Below are positions 13,420 through 62,202 of a DNA stretch of 64,000 nucleotides, piece after piece; position 1 is the first letter of the stretch; each line of letters starts with the position of its first letter. The stretch lies in NCBI GenBank assembly GCA_009885955.1, contig VFJS01000088.1:1-64000 (forward strand). Direction: 5' to 3'. A program made the translations under genes and the position numbers. The notes beneath the pieces are model-generated. The model saw only the letters and a list, made by a program, of their open reading frames with translations, did not search any database and was not told the origin of the DNA. The stretch is from Spirochaetia bacterium (GTDB lineage Bacteria > Spirochaetota > UBA4802 > UBA5550).

Positions 13420-13447
13420 GATGGTGGTCACTTCTCGTCGATTTTGG

Positions 13448-13497
13448 TGTTGCTCTGAGCACTTCGGCATAGCTCAGTGTAGCACTTTTCGAAGCGG
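13448..13497. repeat. Imperfect inverted repeat containing TTGCTCTGAGCA
   Basis: A short dyad-rich stretch after the second kinase gene. It contains TTGCTCTGAGCA at 13450-13461, ACTTCGGCATAGCTCAGTGT and a second arm TTTTCGAAGC. The TTGCTCTGAGCA core is the same word that makes up the tandem array in the RNase P RNA gene. It may also act as a terminator for the kinase gene, though it has no T run. Confidence 0.45.
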
Positions 13498-13598
13498 GTT
13501 AGAGCATTATTTGTAAAAAAATTTTATCAACACTTGACTTTTTAATATTTTAGTATTAACTTAAATACAATCGATTAATATTTCAAAGGAGTTATACT

Positions 13599-25558: not shown

Positions 25559-25590
25559 TTTACATATATTTGCTCTCTGTTGCATACATA
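25559..25590 (+). promoter_or_regulatory. Candidate rnpB promoter
   Basis: TTTACA at 25559-25564 and CATACA/TACATA at 25583-25590 are spaced 18-20 bases apart and lie just before the expected 5' end of RNase P RNA at 25595. The match to sigma-70 consensus is moderate. Confidence 0.35.
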
Positions 25591-25594
25591 TATC

Positions 25595-26218
25595 GAAGAG
25601 AAACAGGCAGACGCGCTTGCCTGCCGCCGGATGCAAATCCGTAGACAGGCGGTGAGGAAAGTCCGAACACCGAAGGACAGGGTGCCGGGTAACGCCCGGA
25701 CGCCGCGAGGCGATGGAAAGTGCAACAGAAAGTATACCGCCCCTCGGCTCCGCTCGGGGCATCGCCCGAAGATGAATTGGGGTTGATGGCATCGCTGATG
25801 AACCCTGATTTGGGGCAGTTGATGTCGTACCGGGTGGAGTCAATGACGTTGCTCCGAGCAGAGTCGAAAACGTTGCTCTGAGCAGGGTCGAAAACGTTGC
25901 TCTGAGCAGGGTCGAAAGAGTTGCTCTGAGCAGGGTCGAAAGAGTTGCTCTGAGCAGGGTCGAAAGAGTTGCTCTGAGCAGGGTCGAAGGCGTCGCCCTG
26001 AGCGGAGCCGAAGGGCAAGGGTGAAATGGCGAGGTAAGAGCTCACCGCGCCGGCTGTAAGGCCGACGGCAGTGTAAACCCCACCCGGTGCAATACCAAGC
26101 AGTCAGCCGCCTGAGAGCTGTCCGCTCAAGGCTGAGGGTAGGTAGCAAGGACAGGCATGGCAACATGTCTGCAAGATAGATGTCTGCATAAACAGAATTC
26201 GGCTTATGGTTCTCTTCA
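25595..26218 (+). ncRNA. rnpB: RNase P RNA with an enlarged P12
   Basis: The catalytic RNA that trims tRNA 5' leaders. Signature blocks appear in order: the terminal P1 helix (GAAGAGAAAC with GGTTCTCTTC), GAGGAAAGTCCGAACAC, ACAGGGTGCCGGGTAACGCC, GGAAAGTGCAACAGAAAGTA, ACCGCC, GGTGAAATGGCGAGGTAAGA, GTAAACCCCACCCGG, AAGATAGATG and ACAGAATTCGGCTTAT. Bacterial rnpB is usually 350-400 nt; this one is about 624. The excess lies between ACCGCC and AAGGGTGAAA, where P12 belongs. Arms at 25739-25760 and 25995-26016 can form a long P12 base, with a tandem repeat array between. I do not see the usual GGU loop motif of P15. Apparent proteins on either strand here are by-products of the repeats. Confidence 0.95.
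25847..26014. repeat. Seven tandem 24-bp repeats inside RNase P RNA P12
   Basis: Seven head-to-tail 24-base units with no spacers, of the form GTTGCTCTGAGCAGGGTCGAA plus 3 variable bases. Units 2-6 are nearly identical; units 1 and 7 have diverged (unit 7 carries GCCCTGAGCGGAGCCGAAGG). TTGCTCTGAGCA is itself a near-palindrome. The array lies wholly inside the P12 hairpin of rnpB and is transcribed with it. Confidence 0.92.
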
Positions 26219-26253
26219 GGAATTATATTCACAGCGAGCTGTCTTAAAAGTCA

Positions 26254-26337
26254 GCCACGGAGTCACGGAGACACGGAGGGTTATAAAAATGGCGCATTTT
26301 TTATATCCATTTCTCTGTGTCTCTGTGCCTCTGTGGC
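26254..26337. repeat. Inverted-repeat element, GCCACAGAGGC family (copy 2)
   Basis: A short 84-base copy. The left arm is GCCACGGAGTCACGGAGACAC and the right arm is CTCTGTGTCTCTGTGCCTCTGTGGC, separated by a brief AT-rich core. It lies between the rnpB 3' end and sppA. Confidence 0.65.
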
Positions 26338-26393
26338 AAAATTTTTTTTTGGGAAATGCTATTATTTTTAATTGAATTATTAACAGGTGGTCA

Positions 26394-27344
26394 ATGGACA
26401 GGAACAGGAAAATCCTCATTTCAATTTTCGCCCTTCTCATATTATCCGTAATGCTGGCCATCATAGATATCTCTATCAAGGTCCAGGACGACAGGGACAG
26501 GGACCACAGGGGAATGCCTTTCAGGACCGGGCCCGGCGTGGGAATAGTCAGGGTTGAAGGGCCCATAAGCATAAAATCGAGGAGCGGCCCTTTTGACCTC
26601 TCTGCCGGGAGTGAAAGTATTGTCAAAAGGCTCGATGAGCTGTCGAGAAACAGCAGCATAAAGGCCATTGTCCTCAGGATAAACTCTCCCGGAGGGACGG
26701 TCGCAAGCGTCCAGGAGATCTATCATAAGCTCTGGAAGATCAGAAAAAGGAATATCCCCCTTATCGCATCCATGGGGGACATTGCCACTTCGGGAGGATA
26801 TTATATAGCGTCGGCATGCAACCTTATATTTGCCAACTACGGCACGGTGACCGGATCCATCGGGGTTATTGCCCTTTCGCCGAACATGAAGGGACTCTTT
26901 GAAAAACTGGGAATAAAGATGAATGTGATAAAGAGCGGAAACTACAAGGACATCATGTCAAGCCACCGGGACCTCACAAAGGATGAATCCGAGCTTTTAC
27001 AGGAGATGATCGATACCTCGTACAGGAGGTTCCTGAAAGACGTGGCCCTGGGGAGAAACCAGGGTATTTCCGATATAGAACCCTATGCAGACGGGAGAAT
27101 TTTAAACGGCGAGACTGCCCAGAAGCTCAAGCTTGTTGACACCATTGGAACATTTGATGATGCCGTAGACAAGGCAAGGGAGATGGCAAAGCTCGATGAG
27201 AATTCGCCTGTGTACGACGAGTACCTGACTCCCTTTCAGCAGGTACTCATGTCGCTGGATACAATGGTCAGGTTCGGCTCAACCATCAAGGAGGGGATGG
27301 ACGGCGGTTCAGCATTTACCCTGGAGTACAGGTACAGGCCATGA
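26394..27344 (+). CDS. sppA: Signal peptide peptidase SppA (short form)
   Basis: A 316-residue membrane-bound serine protease of the S49 family that degrades cleaved signal peptides. An N-terminal membrane helix spans about residues 7-28. The peptidase core contains AIVLRINSPGGTVASVQEIY, the nucleophile in GDIATSGGYYIASA near residue 138, GTVTGSIGVI, and the lysine base in KSGNYKDIMS near residue 185. This is the single-domain type (about 300 residues), not the 67-kDa E. coli type. CAGGTGG precedes the ATG. The stop overlaps the next gene by 4 bases. Confidence 0.92.
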   Translation: MDRNRKILISIFALLILSVMLAIIDISIKVQDDRDRDHRGMPFRTGPGVGIVRVEGPISIKSRSGPFDLSAGSESIVKRLDELSRNSSIKAIVLRINSPGGTVASVQEIYHKLWKIRKRNIPLIASMGDIATSGGYYIASACNLIFANYGTVTGSIGVIALSPNMKGLFEKLGIKMNVIKSGNYKDIMSSHRDLTKDESELLQEMIDTSYRRFLKDVALGRNQGISDIEPYADGRILNGETAQKLKLVDTIGTFDDAVDKAREMAKLDENSPVYDEYLTPFQQVLMSLDTMVRFGSTIKEGMDGGSAFTLEYRYRP

Positions 27345-60535: not shown

Positions 60536-62202
60536 AAATTCTCCTCGCATACATCTCCGAGTACCGGGACAGGAATGATTACTATATGTCCCTTATGCCT
60601 TCGGGCCTTACTTCCATAGCCTCGTATCTCCAGGAGAAAGGTCACGATGTCAAGCTTGCAAATTATTCAGCTTCCGGCTGGAAAAAGGGGGCCGGGGATA
60701 TCATACGGGAGAATCCCGATGCCCTCGGCGTCTCTATTTTTTCCTTTAACAGAACGGACTCTTTTCGAATGATTAAAAAAGCCCGGGCATCTCTGACCGC
60801 AGTGAAGATAATTATTGGCGGGCCCCATGCGACTTTCCTGTCCGGCGAGATCATGAAGAGGCACGGGGAGATTGATTACATTGTTGCAGGGGAGGGGGAA
60901 CTGGCGCTATCCTCCCTTCTTGATGACATGGGAAAGGGTGTACCGCGGGAGAAGATAATTCACGGCGGGAGGATTGATGATCTTGATACGCTTCCGGCCG
61001 CCCCTGAATTTACCGGGGAGCTTTCCGGCGTGAACACAAGAGAGCAGTACAAGTACATCATAACCTCGCGGGGATGCCCGGGCAGCTGCACCTTCTGCTC
61101 TTCCCCGGCCTTCTGGGAGAGGAAGGTGAGATACCGGAGCGCGGAACATGTCTTCAATGAAATAAAATATATCCATGAGAAGTACGGAATTATATATTTT
61201 TCCATACGCGATGATAATTTTACCCTCAATAAAAAAAGGGTCCTTGAGTTTTCAAAACTGCTGCAGAAGAGCGGGATCTACCTCATGTGGAACTGCCAGG
61301 CCAGGGTGGATACCGTTGACCAGGAGATGCTCGTTGAAATGAAAAGGGCCGGGCTTGAGCATATCCAGTACGGCGTTGAATCGGGTTCCGGGGAGATGCT
61401 CCGGAGATACGGCAAGTCGATTGACACTGCTGATATAATTAAGGCTGCGGAATTGACCAGAAATGCGGGAATATACCTCTCCATCTACCTCATGACCGGT
61501 ATGGAGGGCGAGGGCCCGGAGGACATAAGAAAAACGGTCTCGCTCATGAAGAAAGTGAGGCCCGGGGACTGCATCATCTCCCCTGTCGCATATTATCCGG
61601 GCACAGCCCTTTACAATGATATGAAGAATAAGGGAAAGATACGCGATGCCCACTGGTTTGAAAACAGGGAGAGCGGCCTCTACGTCAGGGATGATAATGA
61701 TGCCCGCACAGGCATGGCAGAGCTGGCCGAGGCAGCGTACCGGATAGCATCTTCATCGGGTTACGGCGAAAGGGATTTTGCAGGTCACAGGCTGGTTGCC
61801 GGAGATGACTGCTGGGTCACCGATATCATGGAAGGCGACATGTTCATGGCCGGGGGATATTATGACAGGGCGGAGAAATGCCTGGAAAAAGTTATACAGT
61901 CGTATCCTGGTAATATTTGGGGATTTTACCGGATGGGACAACTTAAACAAGAACAGGGTGAATTTCCCGGAGCAGTATTATTCTATAAAAAGGCTCAGTC
62001 TATAAATCCGGAATTTTACGGCACCTGGATGAACCTGGCCGCGGTCTATCTTGCTCAGAGCAATCTTGCTCAGAGTAACAGGTATCTTGCTCAGAGCAAC
62101 AGGGCTGCTGCATTGGAACATATTGAAAAAGCCTATCAGATAAACAGCTATCATAAGAAAATAAAGGAGATACGGAAAAAGTGCCTGCGCCATGGAAAGT
62201 GA
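60526..62202 (+). CDS. B12-binding radical SAM protein with a C-terminal TPR
   Basis: A 558-residue protein starting at GTG, overlapping the VanY-type gene by 10 bases. An N-terminal cobalamin-binding-like domain spans about 1-140 (ALGVSIFSFNRTDSFRMIKK, IIGGPHATFLSGEIM). The radical SAM domain spans about 165-370 (SRGCPGSCTFCSSPAFW with CxxxCxxC near 187; IQYGVESGSGEMLRRYGKS). A TPR-like tail follows from about 430 (MAGGYYDRAEKCLEKVIQSY, WGFYRMGQLKQEQGEFPGA). The DxHxxG B12 motif is not evident. Family members do methyl or lipid chemistry; the substrate is unknown. Near residue 510 a repeat has inserted LAQSNLAQSNRYLAQSN in frame. Confidence 0.85.
   Translation: MQVKILLAYISEYRDRNDYYMSLMPSGLTSIASYLQEKGHDVKLANYSASGWKKGAGDIIRENPDALGVSIFSFNRTDSFRMIKKARASLTAVKIIIGGPHATFLSGEIMKRHGEIDYIVAGEGELALSSLLDDMGKGVPREKIIHGGRIDDLDTLPAAPEFTGELSGVNTREQYKYIITSRGCPGSCTFCSSPAFWERKVRYRSAEHVFNEIKYIHEKYGIIYFSIRDDNFTLNKKRVLEFSKLLQKSGIYLMWNCQARVDTVDQEMLVEMKRAGLEHIQYGVESGSGEMLRRYGKSIDTADIIKAAELTRNAGIYLSIYLMTGMEGEGPEDIRKTVSLMKKVRPGDCIISPVAYYPGTALYNDMKNKGKIRDAHWFENRESGLYVRDDNDARTGMAELAEAAYRIASSSGYGERDFAGHRLVAGDDCWVTDIMEGDMFMAGGYYDRAEKCLEKVIQSYPGNIWGFYRMGQLKQEQGEFPGAVLFYKKAQSINPEFYGTWMNLAAVYLAQSNLAQSNRYLAQSNRAAALEHIEKAYQINSYHKKIKEIRKKCLRHGK
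62051..62099. repeat. Three copies of a TTGCTCAGAGCAA palindrome inside the radical SAM gene
   Basis: TTGCTCAGAGCAA at 62051-62063, TTGCTCAGAGTAA at 62066-62078 and TTGCTCAGAGCAA at 62087-62099, in the same reading frame, each giving LAQS(N). The core matches the TTGCTCTGAGCA of the rnpB array. The insertion interrupts a TPR helix pair but keeps the frame open. Confidence 0.75.

Follow-up and report, generated by a model that had tools for sequence, protein, structure and literature searches.

Identity and locus of the rnpB gene

The rnpB gene of this Spirochaetia bacterium raises the question of how an essential ribozyme came to contain a long tandem-repeat array within one of its helices, and whether the RNA is likely to work with it. 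The window, which is the whole stretch of 64,000 nucleotides that was analysed, holds the gene, its probable terminator and a conserved neighbour:

25595–26221, + strand: rnpB, class A RNase P RNA (RF00010 match, the sole match in the genome)
26017–26221, + strand: conserved 3′ part of rnpB, from AAGGGTGAAA onward, comprising P13/P14, P15–P17, P18 and the 3′ end (RF00010 and alignment of relatives)
26254–26348, + strand: probable rnpB terminator, a long inverted repeat followed by a T run (sequence and fold)
26394–27344, + strand: SppA-like protease, conserved neighbour (matches beside rnpB in 16 family genomes)

The initial annotation had named this gene rnpB, and the Rfam covariance model supports that identity. 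The + strand at 25595–26221 matches RF00010 over the full length of the model (positions 1–367) with 251.6 bits (E = 9e-81), compared with a curated threshold of 100, and P13/P14 and P16–P18 are present with their helices aligned, as in class A RNAs. Another rnpB elsewhere in the genome had been raised as a possibility; a search of the 4.77-Mb draft genome (117 contigs, 98% complete) found no second copy. The gene for the RNase P protein, rnpA, is present. Because rnpB is single copy and rnpA accompanies it, it is likely that this RNA catalyses the processing of pre-tRNA 5′ ends.

The SppA-like protein has its best named match in a Spirochaetes metagenome genome (53% identity). Its gene lies downstream of rnpB as it does in 16 family genomes, indicating that the locus is ancestral and orthologous and not a stray copy. 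Directly after rnpB, the inverted repeat at 26254–26348 has the arms CCACGGAGTCACGGAGACACGGAGG and TCTCTGTGTCTCTGTGCCTCTGTGG and is itself repeat-like; it was not flagged on the + strand by a simple terminator scan because the loop limit of the scan excludes such a hairpin. Matches to MIR173 and other families downstream of rnpB scored below their gathering scores and were rejected as a long hairpin matched by shape.

An excess of length confined to P12

The rnpB gene spans 627 nt, compared with 301–408 nt (mean 359, sd 21) for the complete matches in the order, and the longest rnpB among the best matches listed in a phylum survey of 393 genomes was ~447 nt. Comparison with relatives placed the excess in P12 alone, where the initial annotation had put it, with the other conserved blocks aligning without large insertions and the core intact. 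Counted from ACC up to, but without, AAGGGTGAAA, P12 measures 281 nt, against 16–70 nt (median 24.5) in 38 order-level relatives, and this arm of ~280 bases is four times the length of P12 in any of the close relatives compared. In the S-domain, P12 forms part of the P7/P10/P11/P12 stack (PMC4919922), and it has been described as a helix that can at times be dispensed with, cyanobacteria being one example (PMC2858038).

Anatomy of the insert

The insert consists of a 28-nt inverted repeat, a unique spacer and 24-bp units:

25739–25766, + strand: P12 5′ arm, a reverse-complement copy of a dispersed repeat, GCCCCTCGGCTCCGCTCGGGGCATCGCC (inverted repeat; 28/28 identical to the relative G012)
25767–25823, + strand: unique spacer between the 5′ arm and the array (no convincing copy elsewhere; fold)
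25824–25847, + strand: decayed 24-bp unit, the eighth (agrees with the following unit at 15/24 positions, in register)
25848–25991, + strand: six 24-bp tandem units, consensus GTTGCTCTGAGCAGGGTCGAAAGA (Tandem Repeats Finder, unit comparison)
25989–26016, + strand: P12 3′ arm including the seventh unit (25992–26015), a forward copy of the dispersed repeat (inverted repeat)

The two arms are 28 nt each and 86% complementary; arms closing P12 around the array had been proposed earlier, and those found here are slightly longer than claimed. The earlier count of seven 24-bp units also held, in the register 25848–26015, with the seventh unit being the P12 3′ arm itself. Tandem Repeats Finder reported a period of 24, 6.5 copies and 93% matches at 25848–26003. 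The similarity of the decayed unit to its neighbour exceeds that of shuffled sequences (p = 0.0002), although only 11 of its 24 positions agree with the array consensus. The array units are identical to the present 3′ arm at only 17/24 positions.

The spacer is predicted to fold as a stem of its own. It was tried as another dispersed element and as a 24-mer unit, and both were rejected: the genome contains no convincing second copy, and no unit in the spacer scored above chance against the array consensus (p = 0.91). Two reverse-strand open reading frames across the array (25560–26045 and 25840–26232) are antisense to rnpB and were not taken as genes; such frames stay open through the array because 24 is a multiple of three. 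Separately, 25819–25840 is 77% complementary over 22 nt to 26077–26098, in the conserved ACCCCACCCGG core region, which may be a coincidence or a potential cause of misfolding.

Because the assembly is a draft and an exact internal repeat of 69 nt lies within the array, the number of units may be too low. Another contig of the same genome opens with at least six 19-bp tandem units, TTGCTCTGAGCAAAACACG, the later ones with one change (C61:1–110), suggesting that such arrays may break assembly. Collapse of units during assembly is possible, whereas an array invented by assembly is not likely: the units differ in order, with AAC, AGA and GGC endings, the contig that surrounds the insert is at least 64 kb long, and relatives carry the unexpanded hairpin described below. 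We therefore consider it very unlikely that the array is an assembly artefact or that its unit number is wrong.

The P12 arms belong to a dispersed repeat family

Both arms carry GAGCGGAGCCGA, in opposite orientations, and together they form an inverted pair of the dispersed repeat CTGAGCGGAGYCGAA. Pattern searches of the genomes found 38 copies of GAGCGGAGYCGA in this genome (control 0), 24 in G017, 15 in G012 and 88 in G004, with 0–1 matches to the reversed controls, a dispersal far above chance as in REP sequences. In this genome, 43 copies of the core motif TTGCTCTGAGCA were counted and none of its reversed control pattern. Of 13 pairs of neighbouring copies here that lie no more than 300 bp apart, ten, the rnpB pair among them, face each other in the order seen in P12, an arrangement that would form hairpins as in REPINs; singlets occur too. 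Inverted pairs are typically 36–76 bp apart, compared with 256 bp for the rnpB pair. The copies sit in short imperfect palindromes with variable flanks, and tandem arrays of the same repeat were found elsewhere, as three 27-bp units in G017 and, in this genome, as a 24-bp pair at C70:51223 and as the 19-bp array that opens contig C61.

REPINs are inverted doublets of REPs, short dispersed palindromic repeats, and are predicted to form hairpins; tandem arrays occur, and excision of a whole REPIN has been reported (PMC3116915). The repeat described here is likewise dispersed and palindromic, often arranged in inverted doublets and also found in tandem arrays. REPINs lie in extragenic DNA, however, whereas this element lies inside an essential ribozyme.

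GC-rich hairpins could in principle have converged on a similar sequence, and unrelated palindromes of 40–65 nt do occur at P12 in other relatives. Nevertheless, the 12-base core on both arms is identical to that of the dispersed repeat and stands in the same inverted order, and the arm and spacer sequence is common to different genera, making convergence highly improbable.

An unexpanded hairpin in relatives

The same kind of hairpin, unexpanded and 58–67 nt long, forms P12 in four relatives, namely G012, G017, G019 and the more diverged G002; the expanded array was found in one species only. When the G019 hairpin was used as a query against 20 family genomes, it matched at full length only in the rnpB genes of G019, G012 and G017 and partially in the rnpB studied here, while matches elsewhere were confined to arms of ~20 nt, the nearest exception outside rnpB being a 73% match of 60 nt in G017.

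The distribution of the hairpin is uneven. In the rnpB-core tree, in which many deep branches are unresolved, the closest relative is G006 (support 98/93), whose P12 is 16 nt long without the element, and within genus g4 the hairpin is present in three of six species and absent from the other three. The element must therefore have been lost or gained more than once. Conservation of the hairpin was also considered as a sign of homing and rejected: although the 5′ arm is identical to that of G012 at 28/28 positions (core 85%), the 3′ arm differs at 7/28, so that the two arms shared with G012 are not unusual together.

Five hairpin sequences, one from each of five genomes, were aligned, the two arms of the present gene being joined to make its row. 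The arms remain paired in 96.8% of cells, compared with 42–46% in slid controls, and four of the pairs have changed on both sides. Such pairing would be expected if a long P12 had been selected for a function, for example protein binding or the sensing of a condition. However, the hairpin is absent from sister species, the array occurs in one species only and its units diverge, and young or shared palindromic repeats keep their arms paired anyway; selection for a function thus appears quite improbable.

In other relatives (L005, L015 and L072), P12 is made of different palindromes of 40–65 nt; the helix may be a place where palindromes in general land or grow. Such palindromes were also examined as dispersed repeats themselves, which was rejected; one in G011 has no further exact copies.

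Predicted fold of the insert

The RNA fold of 25733–26022 has a predicted energy of –149.4 kcal/mol, compared with –107.1 kcal/mol (sd 5.2) for shuffled sequences (z = –8.2). In the predicted fold, the paired arms lengthen P12, and the array doubles back so that its units pair with one another in a rod. A GC-rich helix of 17 uninterrupted pairs lies next to the P12 base with the paired units above it, and the array helices are broken by internal loops every 6–7 pairs.

The initial annotation had suggested that each unit might fold as a small hairpin, giving a bristle of stems, and the energies speak against this. Restricting the pair span to 24 nt gave –93.1 kcal/mol and to 48 nt –114.1 kcal/mol, compared with –148.8 kcal/mol without restriction, and a single 24-bp unit reaches only about –3 kcal/mol on its own. 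The short-range fold is therefore ~55 kcal/mol worse, and a bristle is not favoured at equilibrium. Co-transcriptional folding could differ from the equilibrium rod.

Some bacterial 23S rRNAs contain intervening sequences that RNase III cuts out, and the fragments that result are held together by the fold of the RNA. By the same route, RNase III or a similar enzyme could cut the rod and remove part of the array to leave a two-piece RNase P RNA. A long predicted duplex with a 17-pair helix near its base and paired units above would suit such cutting, but the frequent interruptions of the array helices argue against it, as does the lack of any sign of a cut in the shorter hairpins of relatives, and we regard this outcome as unlikely. 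That the rod is cut out of the transcript, with a REPIN-like element acting as an intervening sequence and dividing a naturally two-piece RNase P RNA at P12, is similarly doubtful.

A probable two-step origin of the enlarged P12

The reading that we prefer, and consider probable, is that P12 of a working single-copy rnpB was remodelled in two steps, by a REPIN-like element and then by tandem duplication of one of its arms, giving a nearly neutral rod. In the first step, an inverted pair of CTGAGCGGAGYCGAA, with the copies facing each other as in REPINs, would have occupied the tip of P12 and formed a hairpin of ~60 nt. In the second, specific to the lineage of this genome, the 3′ arm would have been duplicated in tandem as 24-bp units, with replication slippage or unequal recombination as the probable mechanism. 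The 5′ arm and the array would have become separated by the unique spacer, whose origin the model leaves unexplained. The short P12 of G006 and of three g4 species, which calls for losses or repeated gains, and the modest agreement of the units with the present 3′ arm also count against this model. We infer the order of these events from the states of P12 in relatives and from the units themselves. Tandem copying of the 3′ arm is the simplest origin of the array because its units resemble that arm and because the first full unit retains CCGAGC and AGAGTCGA in a form close to that of the 3′ arms of relatives. A mobile or a slipping repeat had been proposed at the outset; both parts enter the best account, refined to a dispersed hairpin that came first and a tandem duplication of its 3′ arm that followed.

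In the transcript, the arms would stay paired and the self-complementary units would pair with each other, and the insert would therefore lengthen P12 as a long rod pointing away from the core. P12 forms the tip of the S-domain, so an extension there would be tolerated and probably close to neutral; a tolerated, nearly neutral extension is thus the likely outcome.

Relation to known systems

Genome-wide short tandem repeats inside rnpB are already known from heterocyst-forming cyanobacteria, in which STRR sequences reportedly sit in P12 and lengthen it, with heptanucleotide units. Vioque 1997 (cited in PMC2858038) names STRR sequences within rnpB of heterocystous cyanobacteria in its title. 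The present rnpB resembles these genes in holding a genome-wide tandem repeat, here in P12, but the repeat and the phylum are unrelated, and the unit is 24 bp long, derived from the arm of an inverted palindromic element, and is not the cyanobacterial heptanucleotide. The present case differs further in that relatives show an intermediate state.

Rickettsia palindromic elements are selfish palindromic repeats that lie inside coding and RNA genes; the repeat and the lineage differ from those described here, and a literature search found no paper linking these elements with RNase P. Large departures in RNase P RNA helices are also seen in CPR bacteria, as an extended P15 and losses of P12, and a repeat-derived P12 is not described in the passages of that study drawn on here (PMC8172020).

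The family thus offers a readable series from an empty P12, through a repeat hairpin, to an expanded array, which shows how selfish repeats may invade an essential ribozyme at a point that tolerates them, and make it larger, while its working core is left untouched. It also offers a natural experiment on the amount of added RNA that RNase P tolerates at P12, and even on whether it would withstand a break there. For annotation, searches of fixed length can miss such an rnpB or mis-size it.

Transposases and further repeats

A literature search with the letters of the repeat found no match. RAYT-like Y1 transposases are present in this genome; the main repeat lies near only one of them, and the GCTCNGAGC core lies near three. 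On contig C9, a RAYT-like Y1 transposase gene is flanked on either side by GCTCNGAGC palindromes, four of them within 3.3 kb, and this gene is a lead as to which transposase moves the repeat. Two further repeats were observed in the window. At 62048–62106, an open frame contains tandem copies of TTGCTCAGAGCAAC, which encode LAQSN and carry the reverse complement of the array-unit core. At 13430–13500 lies a further repeat element, GTTGCTCTGAGCACTTCGGCATAGCTCAGTGTAGCACTTTTCGAAG, and CTGAGCTATGCCGAA occurs at six places in the genome.
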